A stretch of 64,000 nt of DNA, taken from Thioalkalivibrio sp. ALJ16. GTDB taxonomy: Bacteria; Pseudomonadota; Gammaproteobacteria; Ectothiorhodospirales; Ectothiorhodospiraceae. Position numbers and translations under genes: made by a program. The notes under the pieces are model-generated. The model was not told the DNA's origin and searched no databases. It saw only the letters and a list, made by a program, of their open reading frames with translations. This document shows, piece by piece, positions 39,780-48,864 of this stretch (positions are counted from its first letter, which is position 1; each line of letters opens with the position of its first letter). Where the stretch lies: NCBI RefSeq assembly GCF_000377345.1, contig NZ_KB898040.1, forward strand, positions 1 to 64,000, written 5' to 3'.

Positions 39780-40583
39780 TCAGGGCACGAGTCGTCCCAG
39801 GTCAAAGCGTGCCGTGTCGCGAATGGCGGCGGTCACGGATTCGGCATAGTGGCTGACCAGCGCCCGGCCCAGCTCCGCGGAGGCGGCGCCAGCGTCGCCG
39901 ACCACCCCGGTCGGATTCAGGTCGCCCGCCATCCAGGCAAAGGCGACGCGGCCTTCCGGCTCCAGGAGTTCGAGTTCATCGGCCAGGGTCGCGCCGAGCG
40001 ATGCGGCGCTGGTGGCTGCGTCGAGACGGACCTGTTCAGGTGCCAGCGTGAGCATCATGGCCGTTTCGACCAGGCCTCCGTGCAGGCCGTGGCGCTGTTC
40101 CTCGAGCGGGATGCCGAGGCTATCCGGCAGCGGTTGGCGGAAATAGTGGTGCTTGGCGACCAGCATGCCCGCCTGCTGGCGCAGGTCGAGGGCGGCGAGG
40201 TCGCAGATGGCGGTGTTGCCGCCATGGCTGTTGACCAGCAGCAGGCGGCGAAACCCGCTGCGCGCCACGCTGTGGCCCAGGTCACGCAGGGTTTCCAGTG
40301 CGGTCTCGGGGCGCAGCGTCAGGGTGCCGGGAAAGCCCGAGTGTTCGGTGCTGGTGGCGACGCACATCGGCGGCAGGATGAGCCGCGAGGGTTCTTCGCC
40401 AAGCCTCGCGTGGGCGGCGGCCAGTAGCCCCAGTCCGATGCGGTAGTCGGTGTCCAGCGGCAGGTGCGGGCCGTGCTGTTCGATCGCCGACAGCGGCAGG
40501 ATCGCCACCGCATCGCGTTCGGCGTGGGCGGCGATCTCGCGGCTGGTCAGGTTCTGCCACCAGGGGAGCGCATGGGTATCCAT
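39780..40583 (-). CDS. Creatininase-family metal amidohydrolase
   Basis: The product has 267 aa. The metal site motifs of the creatininase/MftE fold are present: LPLSAIEQHGPHLPLDTD, VATSTEHSGFPGTLTL, LLVNSHGGNTAI and HGLHGGLVETAMML. Substrates in the family range from creatinine to formamidopyrimidines (FAPy deformylase ArfB in riboflavin synthesis) and mycofactocin peptide. Its location just after a riboflavin pair makes a pyrimidine substrate worth considering, but that is only inference. Downstream gene 40615 is oriented the same way, 31 bp upstream. Confidence 0.88.
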   Translation of the reverse strand: MDTHALPWWQNLTSREIAAHAERDAVAILPLSAIEQHGPHLPLDTDYRIGLGLLAAAHARLGEEPSRLILPPMCVATSTEHSGFPGTLTLRPETALETLRDLGHSVARSGFRRLLLVNSHGGNTAICDLAALDLRQQAGMLVAKHHYFRQPLPDSLGIPLEEQRHGLHGGLVETAMMLTLAPEQVRLDAATSAASLGATLADELELLEPEGRVAFAWMAGDLNPTGVVGDAGAASAELGRALVSHYAESVTAAIRDTARFDLGRLVP

Positions 40584-40614
40584 GGTTCAAGCCTTGCCGC
40601 TGGAGCGTAGGGCG

Positions 40615-41391
40615 TCAAGGGCGCAGGCGCGCGTAGAGGTCGCCGGAGCCGAGCCGCTCGCCGTGTTCCTCGAGCCAGGCGAGAATGTCGCTGCCGCCCT
40701 GCCAGTCGCGGAATTCGTACCCGCGTCGCTCGCCGCGGATCAGGTTGAATTCGTATTCGCCAAGGGCGGCGAGCTGTTGCAGGCAGTCAGCTGTGATCTC
40801 GAGGGCCCCGGCCACGAACTCGAAGGACAGTGCGGGCAGCGGGTGGCCCAGTCCGCGCAGTACCTCCGCTTCCAGCCCTTCCACGTCGATCTTGCAGAAA
40901 CGGGGCATGCCGTATTCCGCGATCAGCTGGTCCAGGGTGATCATCGGAACCGCGATTTCGTCGTCCCAGCGGACGTGCTGGAAACTTCGGTTGCGCTGCC
41001 CCAGCGATTGCACCCAGGATCGCGAGACGGAGGAGACCGTGGGGTGGCGGCGACTCACCTGCAGGCGCGCAGTGCCGGGCGATGGCCCGGCGACCTCGCG
41101 GCGGATGGCGATGCCCGGGCGACCACGAACCGCGCGGCGCAGCCAGGGCAGCAACTGGGGCTGGGGCTCCAGGGCCACCACGCGTGCCCCGAGGTCCGCG
41201 AATGCGCGGGTCCGGTCGCCCACATGGGCGCCAATATCGAAGACCAGGTCCCCCGGATGGACGAACTCGGCATACATGCGCTGCAGGCCGCGCTGGCGCC
41301 CCGGGCGACGATAGATGAGCAGCGAGCGCAGGACGCCGATGGTGTGGTCGAGCCAGGCGGTTCTGGATGTGGCTGGCGGGGTAGCGGTCAT
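40615..41391 (-). CDS. FkbM-family methyltransferase
   Basis: The product has 258 aa. The SAM motif I is LVFDIGAHVGDRTRAFADLG, with VVALEPQPQLLPWLRR, ITLDQLIAEYGMPRFCKIDVEGLEAEVLRGL typical of FkbM proteins. They O-methylate sugars or small molecules; the substrate is unknown. No signal peptide. Probably co-transcribed with the creatininase-like gene; divergent from the ChaN operon. Confidence 0.88.
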   Translation of the reverse strand: MTATPPATSRTAWLDHTIGVLRSLLIYRRPGRQRGLQRMYAEFVHPGDLVFDIGAHVGDRTRAFADLGARVVALEPQPQLLPWLRRAVRGRPGIAIRREVAGPSPGTARLQVSRRHPTVSSVSRSWVQSLGQRNRSFQHVRWDDEIAVPMITLDQLIAEYGMPRFCKIDVEGLEAEVLRGLGHPLPALSFEFVAGALEITADCLQQLAALGEYEFNLIRGERRGYEFRDWQGGSDILAWLEEHGERLGSGDLYARLRP

Positions 41392-41504
41392 GCGTGCAGG
41401 CTAACCGGTCGCGCGGCGCGGGGGAACGCCGAGAGCCTGTCGGTGTCTTCTGGAAGGCTACGTTGCGCGCGCGACGCGTAACCCCAAACAAGCAGGAGAT
41501 GCAG

Positions 41505-42659
41505 ATGAACGTGCGCGGGCGATTGTCGGGATGGCTGGGTGTGGGGGTGTTGCTGGGGATGGTACTGGCAGGCCCCGCGTACGCGGACGGCGAGTGTCCG
41601 CCCGCAGGCGCCTGGACCACGCCGGGGGGTGAGCCGGTGGACCGCGCGGCGCTGTATGCGGAGCTGGCCACGGCGGATGCGGTGCTGCTCGGCGAGCGCC
41701 ACGACCGCATGGATCACCACCGCTGGCAGCTGGGCACACTGGCGGCCCTGCACGGTCATCGGCCCGATCTGGTCATCGGGCTGGAGATGCTGCCCCGCTC
41801 GAAGCAGCCGGTGCTGGATGCCTGGGTGGCCGGCGAGCTGGACCCCGAGGCCTTTCTGGAGGCGAGTGAGTGGTATACCCACTGGGGATTCGACCCGGCC
41901 CTTTACTGGCCCATCCTTCACTTTGCGCGGGTGCATGCGATCCCGCTGCTGGCGCTGAATCTGGAACGCGACAAGATCCGTACCCTGGGCCACGAGGGCT
42001 GGGATGCGCTGGACGCCGAGGCGCGCGATGGCGTTTCCGCCCCGGCGGCGGCGAGCGCCGGATACCGCGAATACCTCGAGGCGGTGCTGGAGCGGCACCC
42101 GACCGGCATGGGCCCGAACCGTGACCGCTTTATTGCGACTCAGCTGGCCTGGGACCGCATGATGGCGGGCGCAATCGCCAGCCGCATCGAGGCGGGCGGT
42201 GAGGAGCCGCCGCTGGTCGCAGCGATCATTGGCTCCGGACACCTGGAATACGGGTACGGGGTACCGCATCAGCTGGCCGACCTGGGGGTCGAGGCTGCGC
42301 CGGTGCTGCTCCCGCGCGAGCCGGGCGAATGCGCCGAGTCCGACCCGGCGCTGGCGCGTGCGGTGTTCGGCGTTGCCGCCGACCCGCGTTTCGAGCCAGA
42401 AAGGCGAATGCTCGGTGTGCACATCGAGGCGGCCGATCCAGGCGTCCGTATTCTCGGGGTACAGGACGGCTCGGTGGGCGCGGCGGCCGACCTGAAGGCC
42501 GGGGATCGCCTGCTGCGGGCCGGTGAGCAGGAGGTGAACGCGGCCGGGGACCTGCAGCGCGTGGTGCGCGGTGTGCAGCCGGGCACCTGGCTGCCGCTTG
42601 AAATCGAGCGCGAGGGCGAACGCCTGGAACTCGTCGCGCGCTTCCCGCGGGAGGACTAG
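41505..42659 (+). CDS. ChaN-family haem/iron-associated protein with C-terminal PDZ domain
   Basis: The product has 384 aa. ATG 41505 is preceded by AGGAG at 7 nt; ATG 41499 is an alternative. A signal peptide (LGVGVLLGMVLAGPAYA) is followed by the ChaN/PF04187 domain (about 45-280): VLLGERHDRMDHHRWQLGTL, VIGLEMLPRSKQPVLDAW and IIGSGHLEYGYGVPHQL. ChaN binds stacked haem at the cell surface in Campylobacter. The last 100 residues form a PDZ domain (VRILGVQDGSVGAAADLKAGDRLL), a less common fusion. It is followed after 3 bp by the M1-like peptidase gene, with which it likely works. Confidence 0.88.
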   Translation: MNVRGRLSGWLGVGVLLGMVLAGPAYADGECPPAGAWTTPGGEPVDRAALYAELATADAVLLGERHDRMDHHRWQLGTLAALHGHRPDLVIGLEMLPRSKQPVLDAWVAGELDPEAFLEASEWYTHWGFDPALYWPILHFARVHAIPLLALNLERDKIRTLGHEGWDALDAEARDGVSAPAAASAGYREYLEAVLERHPTGMGPNRDRFIATQLAWDRMMAGAIASRIEAGGEEPPLVAAIIGSGHLEYGYGVPHQLADLGVEAAPVLLPREPGECAESDPALARAVFGVAADPRFEPERRMLGVHIEAADPGVRILGVQDGSVGAAADLKAGDRLLRAGEQEVNAAGDLQRVVRGVQPGTWLPLEIEREGERLELVARFPRED

Positions 42660-42662
42660 CCG

Positions 42663-44630
42663 GTGTCCTGGCGGCGGTGGTTGTGCGGGTTGGTCTGTCT
42701 GCTGGCTTCGGTCGGTGCGGCCGCGGATGCAGACCACCTTTCCGGGCCCGAGCTGGAACTGGTGCTCTGGCCCGAGCAGGCGCGACTGGAGGGGCGTTTC
42801 CAGGTCGAACTTCAGCAGGTGGATGCGGCAACCCTGGAGCGCTTTCGTCTGGACCCGGGCATTGCCGTCGATAAGGTCGAGCTGGACGGAGAGGCGCTTG
42901 CATACACCCGCAGCGATGACGGCTGGCTGGAACTGGAACGGGCACTCGAGGCCGCAAGGGGCACACTGGTGATTCGCTACGGGGCTCGCATCCCCGACGC
43001 CCCGCGGGGCCCGCGCGGGGGTGGCTATCTCGGTACCGATGGTGGCTTCCTGCCGCCGGGCGCCGACTGGTACCCGCGCCGCCCGGCGGCCGAGCCGCAC
43101 CCGTTCCGTGTGCACCTTGAGGTGATGGACGGGCATCTCGGCGTCGCATCCGGTTCGCGGGTGGCGGAGCAGCACGAGAATGGCCGCTACCGTGCCACCT
43201 TCGAGCACCCCGGCGGGCGCGCGCTGGCAGTTGCGACCGGACCCTGGGAGCCGGTGACGCAGGCGGCGGGCGAAGTCGAGATCCGCACCCTGTTCCCGGC
43301 CGGGCTGGAGGTCGCTTTTGGCGAGCTTTATCGCGAGCAGGCCGCAGCCTATATCGAGCGCTTCTCGGACGAGCTGGGTGCGTACCCCTTTGCCACCTTT
43401 ACCATTGCCGCGAGCCCGCAGCCGGTGGGCCTCGCGTTTTCCGGCTTTACCCTGCTGGGCACACAGGTGATTCCTCTGCCCTTTATCCCGTACACCTCGC
43501 TGGGCCACGAGGTGCTGCACAGCTGGTGGGGGACCGGCGTGTATGTGGACCCCGCAGGGGGCAACTGGTCGGAGGGGCTGACAACCTTCCTCGCCGACTA
43601 CCAGTTCAAGCGCGAGGCGGGGGAAGCACGCGCCGAACGCGGCCAGTGGCTGCGCGACTACGCGGCGCTGCCACCCACGGAGGATCGGCCCCATGCGGCG
43701 TTTCGCGGCGGCAACGCCGGGGCGGCGCGGATCGCGGGCTACCATCGCGGGGCGATGCTGTGGTTGATGCTGGAAGACTGGATCGGACGCGAGGCGCTGC
43801 TGGCCGGCGCGCGCCGACTGTTCGCGCAGTGGCGCTTTCGCGAGGCGGACTGGGATGCGGTCATCACTGCCTTCGAGCGCGAGACCGATCAGGACCTGCG
43901 GCCCTTTTTTGAACAGTGGACCGGTCGCAGCGGCGCGCCGCTGCTGGAGCTTGCACAGCTGCAGCGCGAGGCCGGGGAGGCGGGGTGGCGGGTGCGTGCA
44001 GAACTGCATCAGCGCGTACCGGGTGAGCCCTGGATGCTGCGCGTGCCGCTGGAAGTCGAGACGGAGGCCGGGCGCGAAACCCACTGGGTGGAGCTCGATC
44101 AGGCCCGGCGCGAGGTCATCGTCGAGACGGCCGTGCGCCCGCTGGCGGTCGCGGTGGACCCCGACTGGCGACTGTTCCGCCACCTGACGGCCGGGGAGTC
44201 CCCGGATATCCTGCGGCAGGCGGCGCTGGACCCGCGCGTGCGCCTGGTGACCCTCGGGGATGCGCGCGCCGAGGAAGTGGCGGCCTGGCTGGGGCGGGTG
44301 CCGGACGCGGCCGACAGCGATCAGGGTACGCGCATCGTGCTGGGGGATCACACCGCCACCAGTCGCTGGCTGCGGGAGCGCGGGCTGCCCGCAGACCCCG
44401 GGGTGGTCGAGCCGGACCTGGAGGTGGCGTCCGGCCCGCGCGCCTGGGCTGTGCCGGGGGCGGCGGTGGTCGTGATCAGCGGGACCGATGCGGAGGCCCG
44501 GCGCGAGGTGGCCGCCGCACTGCGCCACCGTTCTCACTACAGCTATCTGCTGCCGGGGCAGGGCGATGCGCCGAAGACCGGTCTGTGGCCCGTGCCCGGC
44601 GTCTGGCAGGAACTGAACGATGACGAATGA
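42663..44630 (+). CDS. Secreted M1-like (gluzincin) metallopeptidase
   Basis: The product has 655 aa from GTG 42663, with a signal peptide (LCGLVCLLASVGAAADA). The zinc motif is HEVLHSWWG followed by E in NWSEGLTTFLADY, a HEXXH-x17-E arrangement one residue shorter than the canonical M1 x18. The GAMEN exopeptidase motif is not evident (region QPVGLAFSGFTLLG). The C-terminal 200 residues hold a beta domain and a Rossmann-like tail (IVLGDHTATSRWL). The ChaN-PDZ gene is 3 bp upstream and the HIT gene overlaps by 11 bp. Substrate unknown; periplasmic or exported. Confidence 0.88.
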   Translation: MSWRRWLCGLVCLLASVGAAADADHLSGPELELVLWPEQARLEGRFQVELQQVDAATLERFRLDPGIAVDKVELDGEALAYTRSDDGWLELERALEAARGTLVIRYGARIPDAPRGPRGGGYLGTDGGFLPPGADWYPRRPAAEPHPFRVHLEVMDGHLGVASGSRVAEQHENGRYRATFEHPGGRALAVATGPWEPVTQAAGEVEIRTLFPAGLEVAFGELYREQAAAYIERFSDELGAYPFATFTIAASPQPVGLAFSGFTLLGTQVIPLPFIPYTSLGHEVLHSWWGTGVYVDPAGGNWSEGLTTFLADYQFKREAGEARAERGQWLRDYAALPPTEDRPHAAFRGGNAGAARIAGYHRGAMLWLMLEDWIGREALLAGARRLFAQWRFREADWDAVITAFERETDQDLRPFFEQWTGRSGAPLLELAQLQREAGEAGWRVRAELHQRVPGEPWMLRVPLEVETEAGRETHWVELDQARREVIVETAVRPLAVAVDPDWRLFRHLTAGESPDILRQAALDPRVRLVTLGDARAEEVAAWLGRVPDAADSDQGTRIVLGDHTATSRWLRERGLPADPGVVEPDLEVASGPRAWAVPGAAVVVISGTDAEARREVAAALRHRSHYSYLLPGQGDAPKTGLWPVPGVWQELNDDE

Positions 44631-45045
44631 TTTCGTGTTGGACCCGCGCCTGGAGGCGGATACCTGGGCGGCGGCGGAGTGGCCCTTATCCAGCCTGAGG
44701 CTGATGGATCATCGCGGCTATCCCTGGTTCCTGCTGGTTCCGCGGCGGGCGGAGGTGGCGGAGCTGCACCAGCTGGATGACACGGACGCCGCGCAACTGC
44801 TGCGCGAGTCGCGCGCCCTGTCCCGGGCGATGGAGCAGGCCTTCGCGCCCACGGCCCTGAACGTGGCCAAGCTTGGCAACATCGTGGCGCAGCTCCATCT
44901 CCATCATGTGGCCCGCTTTGCGGACGATGCCGCCTGGCCGGGGCCGGTCTGGGGAACGCCGCATCCCGGAGGGCTGGAACGACACGAGGCCGAGGAGCGC
45001 ATACAGCGCGTCCTCGGCCTCGTGGTGGATATCGCGGACCGGTAA
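44620..45045 (+). CDS. HIT-domain protein
   Basis: The product has 141 aa. The histidine-triad type motif is QLHLHHVARF, within KLGNIVAQLHLHHVARFADDAAWPGPVWG (split here), and LLVPRRAEVAELHQLDD precedes. It belongs to the branch of short bacterial HIT proteins that hydrolyse or transfer nucleotides. It overlaps the peptidase gene by 11 bp, so it is translated with it, although no functional link is evident. A short hairpin, AGACGCC/GGCGTCT (45045-45062), follows the stop. Confidence 0.88.
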   Translation: MTNDFVLDPRLEADTWAAAEWPLSSLRLMDHRGYPWFLLVPRRAEVAELHQLDDTDAAQLLRESRALSRAMEQAFAPTALNVAKLGNIVAQLHLHHVARFADDAAWPGPVWGTPHPGGLERHEAEERIQRVLGLVVDIADR

Positions 45046-45076
45046 GACGCCCGTAGGCGTCTCCGGAGGCGATTGG

Positions 45077-45724
45077 TCAGAAGCGGTAGCCGACGTTCAT
45101 CCCGAAGGTCCAGGGGTCGATGTTGACCGTGCCCAGATGGGCGCCGCCCAGCGAGACGTCGGTGTCGATGTCAATCCAGCGCACTTCGGCATTCACGAAC
45201 CAGTTATCGTCCACTGCGAAGTCGATCCCGGCCTGCAACGCCGCACCCCAGGAATCGTCCAGGTCAATATCCTGCCCTGTCACCGCAGCTGTGTCCTCGT
45301 CGAAGAAGTAGGTGTAGTTGATGCCGGCGCCGACATACGGACGCACCGCGGTGCCGGTGTTGAAGTGGTACTGCAGGCTCAGGGTCGGTGGCAGGTGGCG
45401 GGTGCTGCCGATGTCGTCTCCGCCAACGTTCAGGCTGTGCTTGAACGGGATCGCGACCAGCAGCTCCAGGCCCAGGTTGTCGGTCATCATGTAGGTGATG
45501 TTGCCGGAGGGACGGGTGTTGGAACCGACGTCTACGGCGGCGTCGCCCAAACCGGCCAGAGTGCCGTTATCGGACTTGGGGGCCACGTGGGTCAGGCCGC
45601 CACGGATCAGCCAGTCGCCGGCGGAGACGTCGGCATTGGCGGCGGTGGCGTGGGCCGGGATCAGGGCGGCGGGGGCCAGCAGGCCGGCCAGTGCCAGGGA
45701 GCGGAAGGTCAGGGTGCGTCGCAT
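45077..45724 (-). CDS. ompW: OmpW-family outer-membrane beta-barrel
   Basis: The product has 215 aa with a signal peptide (LALAGLLAPAALIPAHATAA). The mature protein has the eight-strand OmpW pattern, including GDWLIRGGLTHVAPKSDNG, LGLELLVAIPFKHSL, HLPPTLSLQYHF, VRPYVGAGINYTYFF and a terminal aromatic strand ending GYRF. OmpW forms a narrow channel for small hydrophobic molecules. A strong GGAGGA precedes the start. Convergent with the HIT gene. Confidence 0.95.
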   Translation of the reverse strand: MRRTLTFRSLALAGLLAPAALIPAHATAANADVSAGDWLIRGGLTHVAPKSDNGTLAGLGDAAVDVGSNTRPSGNITYMMTDNLGLELLVAIPFKHSLNVGGDDIGSTRHLPPTLSLQYHFNTGTAVRPYVGAGINYTYFFDEDTAAVTGQDIDLDDSWGAALQAGIDFAVDDNWFVNAEVRWIDIDTDVSLGGAHLGTVNIDPWTFGMNVGYRF

Positions 45725-46521: not shown

Positions 46522-46597
46522 GACACTATGACCGCAGGCCCGGTAATTGATTCGGTTGCGGTGGCCCCGGCGCGTGCCGGAATCGGACAGAGAGCGC

Positions 46598-48109
46598 ATG
46601 AATTTTCTCCATACCCTCGGGCACGCGGCACGCAACCTGGCACCGATCGTGATCGTAGTCGCGGTGTTTCAGGCACTGGTGCTGCGCACGGTGCCGGACG
46701 GCCTGCTGTCGATGGTGATCGGCCTGGCCATCGTGGTCTTTGGCGTGGCGCTGTTCCTGCAGGGCCTGGAGATGGGCATCTTCCCCATCGGCAAGAACCT
46801 TTCCAACGCGCTGGCCCGGCGTGGTTCGCTGCTGCTGCTGATGGCGTTCGGCTTTACCCTCGGCTTTGCGACCGTGATCGCGGAACCGGCCCTGATCGCG
46901 GTGGCGGAACAGGCCGAGCTGATCAGCGAGGGACGCATCGAGGGCCTGGTCCTGCGCCTGATTGTCGCGCTGTCCGTGGGTGCCGTGGTGGCGCTGGGCA
47001 TCCTGCGCACGGTCATGGGCCACCCGCTGCACTGGTACATCCTGACCGGCTACGTGCTGGTGGTACTGGTGACCTTCTTTGCCCCCGAGGAGATCGTGGG
47101 TCTGGCCTACGACTCGGGCGGGGTGACCACGAACATCGTGACCGTGCCGCTGGTGGCCGCGCTGGGACTGGGTCTGGCCGCCTCGATCAGCGGGCGCAAT
47201 CCTCTGCGCGACGGCTTTGGCCTGGTGGCGCTGGCGGTGATGGTGCCGATGATCACGGTGCAGCTGTACGGGATCATCGTGTTCGCCGGTGCCGAGATCG
47301 ATGCCCCGGGTAACGGCGAGACCGCGGCGATGGATGCGGACACGGATCTGCCGGGCGCGGATGAGGGGCACTGGCTGTCCGCGATGGGGATGGATCTGCT
47401 GCTGATGCTGCGCGACGTCGCGCCGATCATCGCGGTGATCGTGGTGTTCCAGTACTTCGTGCTGCGCAAGCGCATCCCGTACCTGCCGCGGGTGATCTTC
47501 GGCTTCGTGCTGGTGGTGCTGGGCCTGTACGCCTTTGTGGTCGGGCTCAAGCTGGGCCTGTTCCCGATCGGCGAGAGCATGGCCGAGCAGCTGATCACCA
47601 ACGAGCTGTTCCTGTGGGTCTACCTGTTCGCGTTCTCGATCGGCTTTGCGACCACGATGGCGGAACCGGCCCTGATCGCGATCGGCCAGAAGGCCGAGGA
47701 GGCGGCGCGCGGCTCGCTGCGCGGCAATGTGATCCGCATCCTGGTCGCGCTGGGGGTGGCCATCGGTATCACCATCGGTGTCCACCGTATCCTGGCCGGT
47801 GATTCGATCCATCAATACATCATGGCTGGCTACCTGCTGGTGATCGTGCTGACAATCCTCGCGCCGAAGCAGATCGTGGCGCTGGCCTTCGATCTGGGCG
47901 GGGTAACCACCTCCGAGGTCACGGTGCCGCTAGTCACCGCGCTGGGTATCGGCCTGGCCACGCACCTCGAGGACCGCAACGTGCTGATCGACGGCTTTGG
48001 CCTGATCGCGTTCGCCTCGATTTTCCCGATTGTCACGGTCATGCTCTATGCCATTGCCGTGGATCTGTACGAACGCTGGTTTGCGCGCAACGAGCAACAG
48101 GAGGACTGA
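46598..48109 (+). CDS. DUF1538 membrane protein, internally duplicated putative transporter
   Basis: The product has 503 aa with about ten to twelve hydrophobic segments. Two homologous halves are plain: AEPALI at 95-100 and 355-360, and GGVTT (GGVTTNIVTVPL / GGVTTSEVTVPL) at 174-178 and 434-438, both offset by 260 residues. An acidic cytosolic or periplasmic linker (about 232-258) joins them. The repeated-half design with conserved prolines and glycines is typical of secondary transporters, but the substrate of DUF1538 is unknown. It is followed after 3 bp by a PII-like gene and then a CBS gene, which implies metabolic control of transport. Confidence 0.9.
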   Translation: MNFLHTLGHAARNLAPIVIVVAVFQALVLRTVPDGLLSMVIGLAIVVFGVALFLQGLEMGIFPIGKNLSNALARRGSLLLLMAFGFTLGFATVIAEPALIAVAEQAELISEGRIEGLVLRLIVALSVGAVVALGILRTVMGHPLHWYILTGYVLVVLVTFFAPEEIVGLAYDSGGVTTNIVTVPLVAALGLGLAASISGRNPLRDGFGLVALAVMVPMITVQLYGIIVFAGAEIDAPGNGETAAMDADTDLPGADEGHWLSAMGMDLLLMLRDVAPIIAVIVVFQYFVLRKRIPYLPRVIFGFVLVVLGLYAFVVGLKLGLFPIGESMAEQLITNELFLWVYLFAFSIGFATTMAEPALIAIGQKAEEAARGSLRGNVIRILVALGVAIGITIGVHRILAGDSIHQYIMAGYLLVIVLTILAPKQIVALAFDLGGVTTSEVTVPLVTALGIGLATHLEDRNVLIDGFGLIAFASIFPIVTVMLYAIAVDLYERWFARNEQQED

Positions 48110-48112
48110 AAA

Positions 48113-48460
48113 ATGAAATTTTCCGCACTGGTGGCCGTGCTTCCGGACGACCTGGAAGAGCAGGCCATTGCCACCGCGAAGGCGGCCGGCGCGGGCGGTG
48201 TCACCATCATGGATGCCCGCGGTATCGGGGCCGAGGCGCGCAAGACCTTTCTGGGCATGACCTACGAGGGCAGTCAGTCGGTCCTGCTGTGGGTGCTGGA
48301 GAAGCGCGTGGCCCTGGACGTGCTGAAGTCCATTGCGCGTGAACTGGATCTGGCGAACGACCCTCGGGGGATCGCCTTTACGGTGGATGTGGCGCACCTG
48401 GCCGGCATTGGACGCAATCAGATCGAGCAGTTCCAGGAACAGGTCAAGGAAGAAATCTGA
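48113..48460 (+). CDS. PII-like signalling protein of the DUF1538 cassette
   Basis: The product has 115 aa. The fold matches a small ferredoxin-like PII trimer subunit: strand KFSALVAVLPDDLEEQAIATAKAAGAGGVTIMDARGIG (split), then the T-loop position EARKTFLGMTYEGSQSVLLWVLEK, and a C-terminal strand/helix. The T-loop lacks the uridylylated tyrosine context of GlnB, and no glutamine-regulation signature is seen, so it is PII-like (as SbtB or PII-NG are) rather than GlnB/GlnK. It most likely gates the DUF1538 transporter, by analogy with GlnK-AmtB and SbtB-SbtA. Confidence 0.82.
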   Translation: MKFSALVAVLPDDLEEQAIATAKAAGAGGVTIMDARGIGAEARKTFLGMTYEGSQSVLLWVLEKRVALDVLKSIARELDLANDPRGIAFTVDVAHLAGIGRNQIEQFQEQVKEEI

Positions 48461-48471
48461 CGGAGAACACC

Positions 48472-48864
48472 ATGCTGGTAAGTGAAATCCTGAAATCGAA
48501 TGTCGTGACCGTCTCGCCGCTGGCGCCGCTGCGCGAGGCCATGCAGCTGATGCGCAGGCACGGGGTCAAGTCCCTGGTGGTCGAGAAACAGCATGCCCAT
48601 GATGCCTACGGGATCATCACCTACACCACGATCCTGAAGACGATCGTGGCGGAGGAGGGCGACATCGACCTGTCCAATGTCTATGACGTCTGCACCAAGC
48701 CCGTGATTACGGTACCCGCGGAGATGGACGTGAAATACGTGGCCCGGTTGATGGTCAGTCAGGGCATCCGGCGTCTGGTCGTGCTGCGGGGCAACGAGCT
48801 CGAGGGCATCGTGACGACCAGTGACATCGTCGGCTCCATCCTGCAGATGGCCGACCTCGATTGA
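48472..48864 (+). CDS. Tandem CBS-domain protein
   Basis: The product has 130 aa: two CBS motifs, 1-62 (VSEILKSNVVTVSPLAPLREAMQLMRRHGVKSLVV) and 68-125 (DVCTKPVITVPAEMDVKYVARLMVSQGIRRLVVL ... GIVTTSDIVGSIL). CBS pairs bind adenine nucleotides and sense energy charge. It is 11 bp after the PII-like gene, so the cassette couples a transporter to two nucleotide/metabolite sensors. Confidence 0.92.
   Translation: MLVSEILKSNVVTVSPLAPLREAMQLMRRHGVKSLVVEKQHAHDAYGIITYTTILKTIVAEEGDIDLSNVYDVCTKPVITVPAEMDVKYVARLMVSQGIRRLVVLRGNELEGIVTTSDIVGSILQMADLD

Follow-up and report, generated by a model that had tools for sequence, protein, structure and literature searches.

Why a protein from a family labelled for haem binding should end in a PDZ domain and be encoded a few bases ahead of a metallopeptidase is the question raised by a locus in the first 64,000 nucleotides (forward strand) of contig NZ_KB898040.1 from Thioalkalivibrio sp. 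ALJ16, the whole of the stretch that we analysed and refer to here as the window. A gene at 41505..42659 encodes this 384-residue protein, ChaN-PDZ, and is followed by the genes for an M1-like metallopeptidase (42663..44630; 655 residues, GTG start) and for a HIT protein (44620..45045), all three on the plus strand, as are the features located within them below. The original prediction had joined the three genes into one operon and had read the first two as an exported two-part system for obtaining haem or peptides. The answer that we tentatively prefer is that ChaN-PDZ and the peptidase are a conserved two-gene unit for the breakdown of proteins or peptides in the periplasm, and a role in proteolysis fits the pair better than one involving haem.

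In the family to which the strain belongs, a full-length peptidase (matches above 380 bits) is encoded in 31 of 47 genomes, exactly these 31 also have ChaN-PDZ (above 320 bits), and in 30 of them the two genes are adjacent on one strand, so that the linkage in other genomes on which the original prediction had staked itself is borne out for this pair. Thirty of the family's peptidase loci were retrieved, and in 29 of them ChaN-PDZ lies directly upstream on the same strand; contig ends cut the pair in the thirtieth (G034), which was excluded from our family alignments A1 and A2, and in one further genome (G015) adjacency was read from match positions, its peptidase locus having been left unretrieved and so outside both alignments. 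Measured with start codons chosen by a script, the gap between the two genes in the 29 loci is -1 to 26 bases in 24 cases and 68 to 196 bases in the other five. The 16 family genomes without the peptidase gave no ChaN-PDZ match, i.e., they had ChaN matches reaching the start of the PDZ domain at most, matches to the PDZ domain only, or none, and within a single genus (g4) three genomes had both genes and two had neither.

Scanning named genomes gave 414 loci, and among the best 80 of these, from Thioalkalivibrio, Halomonas and its kin, Nitrosomonas, Nitrosospira, Burkholderiales and others, ChaN-PDZ lies upstream on the same strand in 72. The closest named relative of the peptidase among the same 80 was that of Thioalkalivibrio sp. 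ALJT (82% identity), and 68 peptidases and 66 ChaNs from these loci were joined with the window's own proteins in alignments of 69 and 67 sequences. Our genome searches, those in the family and the phylum included, each scored no more than a handful of candidates in a genome, with misses possible. For the class (369 genomes), lists were copied by hand from the searches for the two proteins, and in these lists the peptidase (at least 190 bits) occurs in 66 genomes and ChaN-PDZ in 68 (G099, G123, G257, G282, G404 and some others being counted despite a partial or fragmented match, with the PDZ domain seen later), both in 59 and neither in 294. ChaN-PDZ is therefore present in 59 of the 66 peptidase-bearing genomes vs. 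9 of the 303 peptidase-free ones (Fisher p = 2e-50, a value that ignores the relatedness of the genomes), and 32 of the 35 families having the peptidase have both. The class search gave 67 peptidase matches in the 66 genomes, of which 60 were retrieved with flanks (the seven left out were in G000, G023, G139, G344, G301, G354 and G409). ChaN lies beside the peptidase in 35 of these 60 loci, in varied orders: 9 tandem, 20 divergent (a contig end truncates ChaN in one of them), 1 downstream, and a further 5 next to peptidases fused to an M28 domain, one of the last five ChaNs being without PDZ. Match positions add G000, G023, G344 and G409, bringing the adjacent matches to 39 of 67, and counted by genome the pair is adjacent in 38 of the 59 that have both genes in the class (in G139 it falls at two contig ends). 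In a tree of 60 class peptidases, one branch (98/95) separates the ten M28-free tandem rows from all the others, the only split that we used from a tree in which the bootstrap was unsettled and the window's branch long. Among 299 genomes of the phylum, 14 have the peptidase and 12 of those 14 have ChaN-PDZ; the two genes co-occur widely, and were found side by side in the class only.

The peptidase model (predicted local distance difference test score, pLDDT, 94.9) has the M1 fold, with a Z score of 30.0 to F3 (1z1w; root-mean-square deviation, rmsd, 3.7 over 474 residues) and of 26.9 to the two-domain M1 enzyme of D. radiodurans, in which the part of our protein beyond about residue 505 has no counterpart. 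The Pfam profile PF01433 gave 27.2 bits in the window's peptidase, just below its cut-off of 27.7, which was passed by the seven relatives scanned and by L205. The shortened HEXXH-x17-E site that had caught attention at the outset is genuine and characteristic of the peptidase family: HEVLH is formed by residues 282-286 and E304 is the distal glutamate (residues 282-304; 43506..43574), and the x17 spacing recurs in 67 of the 69 aligned relatives and in 60 of 61 sequences class-wide. The zinc ligands, base and tyrosine (H282, E283, H286, E304 and Y360) are kept in all 69. The common fold, HEXXH, distal glutamate and catalytic tyrosine are thus those of M1 aminopeptidases such as F3, PepN, puromycin-sensitive aminopeptidase (PSA) and the D. 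radiodurans enzyme, and the family departs from them in its x17 spacing instead of the x18 of M1 and PSA, in its loss of the glutamate of the GAMEN motif and in the fusion of some members to M28 and PDZ domains. At the GAMEN position, in a register set by aligning a relative's YGMPS to the GAMEN of PSA, the window reads GLAFSG (residues 256-261; 43428..43445), and the glutamate is replaced by proline, serine or alanine in 69 of 69 relatives and 61 of 61 sequences class-wide. In M1 aminopeptidases this glutamate binds the N-terminus of the substrate, according to passages of PMC10343166 and PMC3244404. Because it is absent, ordinary aminopeptidase action appears unlikely from the sequence, and the enzyme may instead be an endopeptidase. 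A side observation is that in one class locus, L228 (G376:C13), the peptidase gene is split into several frames.

The N-termini of both proteins look like Sec signal peptides by hydropathy and AxA sites (about residues 1-27 in ChaN-PDZ), which agrees with the earlier claim that both are exported and would place them in the periplasm. ChaN-PDZ continues with a ChaN/Tiki domain (residues 51-257; PF04187, 204.5 bits vs. a Pfam cut-off of 27.7) and an HtrA/DegQ-type PDZ domain (residues 303-376; 42411..42632; PDZ_2, 39.5 bits vs. a cut-off of 27). Its predicted model (pLDDT 92.3) is best matched by C. jejuni ChaN, 2G5G (Z 24.7, rmsd 2.8, 237 residues, 20% identity), and next by Ere-type enzymes and HopBA1 (Z 15.6 to 14.3). 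The PDZ part is closest to HtrA-type domains, those of HtrA2 and DegQ (Z about 15), and L303-G304 of its carboxylate loop are invariant in the 67 close sequences. A pocket of two histidines and two glutamates (2His/2Glu; E64, H66, E94 and H246, within 41694..42242) is kept in 67 of these 67 and in 63 of 63 PDZ-bearing ChaNs class-wide. Tiki-superfamily hydrolases, i.e., erythromycin esterases and the RRSP endopeptidase, share with ChaN-PDZ both the fold (EreC Z 14.3, BcR135 Z 15.0) and the E-x-H / E / H residues, their substrates would differ from those proposed here, and we know of no PDZ domain among them. The 2His/2Glu residues are essential in RRSP, as described in a portion of PMC6254334. 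In the close set of 67 sequences, all retain Cys276 and all but one (66) retain Cys31, which suggests a disulfide and an oxidising compartment; Cys31 of the window protein is preceded by ADGE, which does not read as a lipobox. Among relatives without the peptidase, L298, L299 and L300 carry a ChaN without PDZ, and the stop-to-stop open frames of L298 and L299 have a longer part ahead of the ChaN domain.

At one time the 2His/2Glu set seemed to us to prove an enzyme, an argument since withdrawn, as C. jejuni ChaN carries the same four letters and so do 7 of 7 PDZ-less ChaNs; the set is not diagnostic and cannot separate an enzyme from a haem binder. This brings in the haem explanation, in which the peptidase would degrade haemoproteins, e.g., periplasmic c-type cytochromes, and ChaN-PDZ would take up the released haem or haem-peptide for scavenging or recycling, its PDZ domain docking it to a receptor or substrate. 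The closest solved fold is that of a haem-binding ChaN, and PF04187 is named for haem binding, a label that to our knowledge rests on one crystal structure, of a protein for which we know of neither a PDZ domain nor an M1 partner. ChaN is also called a haem-transport protein, and that of C. jejuni a haem binder, in the part of PMC7979712 that concerns it. We nonetheless find this explanation doubtful, as the four pocket residues fit a hydrolase equally well and two further observations leave a haem role unsupported. By eye rather than by a Pfam scan, no haem receptor or transporter was recognised among the recurrent neighbours, which are lineage-specific. In addition, 2G5G has five tyrosines within the alignment, likewise read by eye, and at each of these positions the window protein has another residue; the haem ligand of C. 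jejuni ChaN is presumably a tyrosine. Conversely, Tyr134 and Tyr187 of the ChaN-PDZ family are phenylalanine and leucine in 2G5G. Of the two-part system first proposed, then, the linked and exported pair survives, while nothing but the family name and the fold speaks for its acquisition of haem.

Proteolysis as the preferred role gains interest from relatives in which an M28 exopeptidase domain and a PDZ domain are fused to the same peptidase, so that PDZ recurs with the peptidase family. Among the 60 class loci there are 19 with a peptidase frame longer than 1000 residues, and each of these frames shows three or more of five M28 patterns. A Pfam scan of six long frames found M28 in all six and PDZ in five (L191, L192, L193, L199 and L203), which thus have M1-like, M28 and PDZ domains in one chain of about 1100-1200 residues; the sixth, L219, has M28 and no PDZ match. 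Frames of 1100 residues had raised the suspicion of a fusion of peptidase and ChaN, which was wrong, as they proved to be M1-M28-PDZ. The presence of PDZ in cis on the peptidase family, together with the strong co-occurrence and frequent adjacency of the pair, would also suit an explanation in which ChaN-PDZ has no catalytic activity and serves as an adaptor or chaperone bringing substrates to the peptidase, a trans equivalent of the PDZ domain found within proteases. We rate this unlikely, in that the invariance of the four pocket residues goes beyond the needs of a scaffold, and the domain does not simply change sides: a rule by which PDZ is carried by ChaN or by the peptidase and never by both was rejected, since both partners carry it at four loci (L202, L203, L216 and L223). 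Nor is the C-terminus of the peptidase a conserved PDZ ligand. Its sequence differs among 29 relatives and is for the most part acidic or polar, making it unlikely that the PDZ domain grips its partner's own end. That the domain hands substrates to the peptidase, as was first suggested, is possible.

A number of observations weigh against a proteolytic pair. The possession of the 2His/2Glu set by a haem-binding protein leaves it no proof of an enzyme, and Cys31 is found in only 24 of the 63 class-wide sequences, so that a Cys31-Cys276 disulfide is not general. Eight of the best 80 of 414 named loci lack an upstream ChaN-PDZ, and apart from one cut by a contig end (L102) these have the peptidase with no ChaN next door (L080, L090, L091, L095, L096, L098 and L099). 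Of the 369 class genomes, 9 have ChaN-PDZ only and 7 the peptidase only, and 17 of the 299 phylum genomes likewise have ChaN-PDZ and no peptidase, to which G528, with a match ending before the PDZ domain, may be added. Among the 59 class genomes that have both, 20 hold the two genes at separate places (12 kilobases apart in G280 and 15 in G166), and in the eight genomes outside the class that have both the two genes are 323 kilobases apart (G416) or on different contigs (the other seven). This lack of adjacency favours a view of the two genes as merely co-inherited neighbours with separate housekeeping roles, as does the HIT gene, which demonstrates that lineage-bound linkage without function happens at this locus. 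We regard such a view as quite improbable, given that adjacency recurs in several orientations and many families amid otherwise changing neighbours, that the genes co-occur even where they are unlinked, and that they are jointly present or absent within the genus g4. Flanking genes differ by lineage and only these two recur across groups, apart from shadow frames, in a clustering of neighbours that relied on crude pruning of open reading frames, lost some real genes and had antisense shadow frames as its third group. At 20 loci with an unlinked ChaN-PDZ, no second conserved partner was found beyond neighbours common to 3 to 5 loci.

If the pair does act in protein breakdown, its nearest parallels would be the PDZ proteases HtrA/DegP and Ctp, which like ChaN-PDZ are exported and combine PDZ with a hydrolase, a putative one in ChaN-PDZ; here that hydrolase would be a Tiki-type domain, and a metallopeptidase is encoded next door. 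By analogy with HtrA and Ctp proteases, the PDZ domain probably holds the C-termini of damaged or cleaved proteins. The ChaN/Tiki domain, with its 2His/2Glu pocket kept, might then cut the bound chain, or bind a ligand, e.g., haem released from that chain, and the peptidase, with an intact zinc site and no GAMEN glutamate, would carry its degradation further, cutting within the chain more probably than from a free N-terminus. A bolder and rather doubtful form of this proposal is that ChaN-PDZ is no haem-uptake protein but a Tiki-type peptide hydrolase, and its partner a GAMEN-less M1-like endopeptidase, the two being components of an extracytoplasmic protease system undescribed in the literature that we found. 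Were it true, the annotation as ChaN haem-uptake protein would in many cases conceal a protease. The fusion to PDZ and the co-occurring, often neighbouring peptidase point to protein turnover, and the haem label becomes directly testable. A survey of PDZ proteins (PMC6411480) includes an EreA-ChaN-like family, with ChaN and PDZ in one protein, that it calls uncharacterised, and gives conserved neighbourhoods for three other PDZ families; the portion of it consulted does not mention a peptidase partner for ChaN-PDZ. Our search of open-access papers found none on the pair, and the GAMEN-less, x17 clade of M1 with its M28-PDZ fusions is, as far as the literature was searched, biochemically unexplored.

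The third gene fared differently from the first two. Its product matches PF01230 (53.4 bits vs. a Pfam cut-off of 21.5) and reads QLHLH, where the usual HIT motif is HxHxH. By hydropathy and AxA sites its N-terminus is not signal-peptide-like, and of the 31 family genomes with the pair, only 13 have this gene adjacent. With neither an export signal nor consistent linkage, HIT was rejected as a third component and is probably a lineage-specific neighbour, leaving of the proposed three-gene unit the conserved pair of ChaN-PDZ and peptidase. The genes do overlap or nearly touch, as was first noted, with 3 bases between ChaN-PDZ and the peptidase and an 11-base overlap between the peptidase and HIT, a spacing from which a three-gene operon may be presumed in the window. 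GGGAGG at 42649..42654, within the 3' end of the ChaN-PDZ gene and upstream of the GTG start, is likely the ribosome-binding site of the peptidase, and translational coupling of the peptidase to ChaN-PDZ would fit this arrangement. No sigma-70-like promoter or terminator was recognised in 41200-45300, which is weak evidence, the DNA being rich in guanine and cytosine (GC-rich).

A minus-strand open frame of 1049 residues (41388-44537) runs antisense to both main genes and is in all likelihood a shadow frame produced by GC-rich codon bias. By Pfam matches, the operon is flanked upstream by divergent genes of the creatininase and FkbM-methyltransferase families (39780-41391, minus strand) and met downstream by a convergent gene for an OmpW-family outer membrane protein (45077-45724, minus strand). 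Farther along, at 46547-48864, genes for a DUF1538 double-domain membrane protein, a weakly P-II-like protein and a CBS-domain protein follow one another on one strand, separated by 3 and 11 bases, and may possibly constitute a regulated transport unit.

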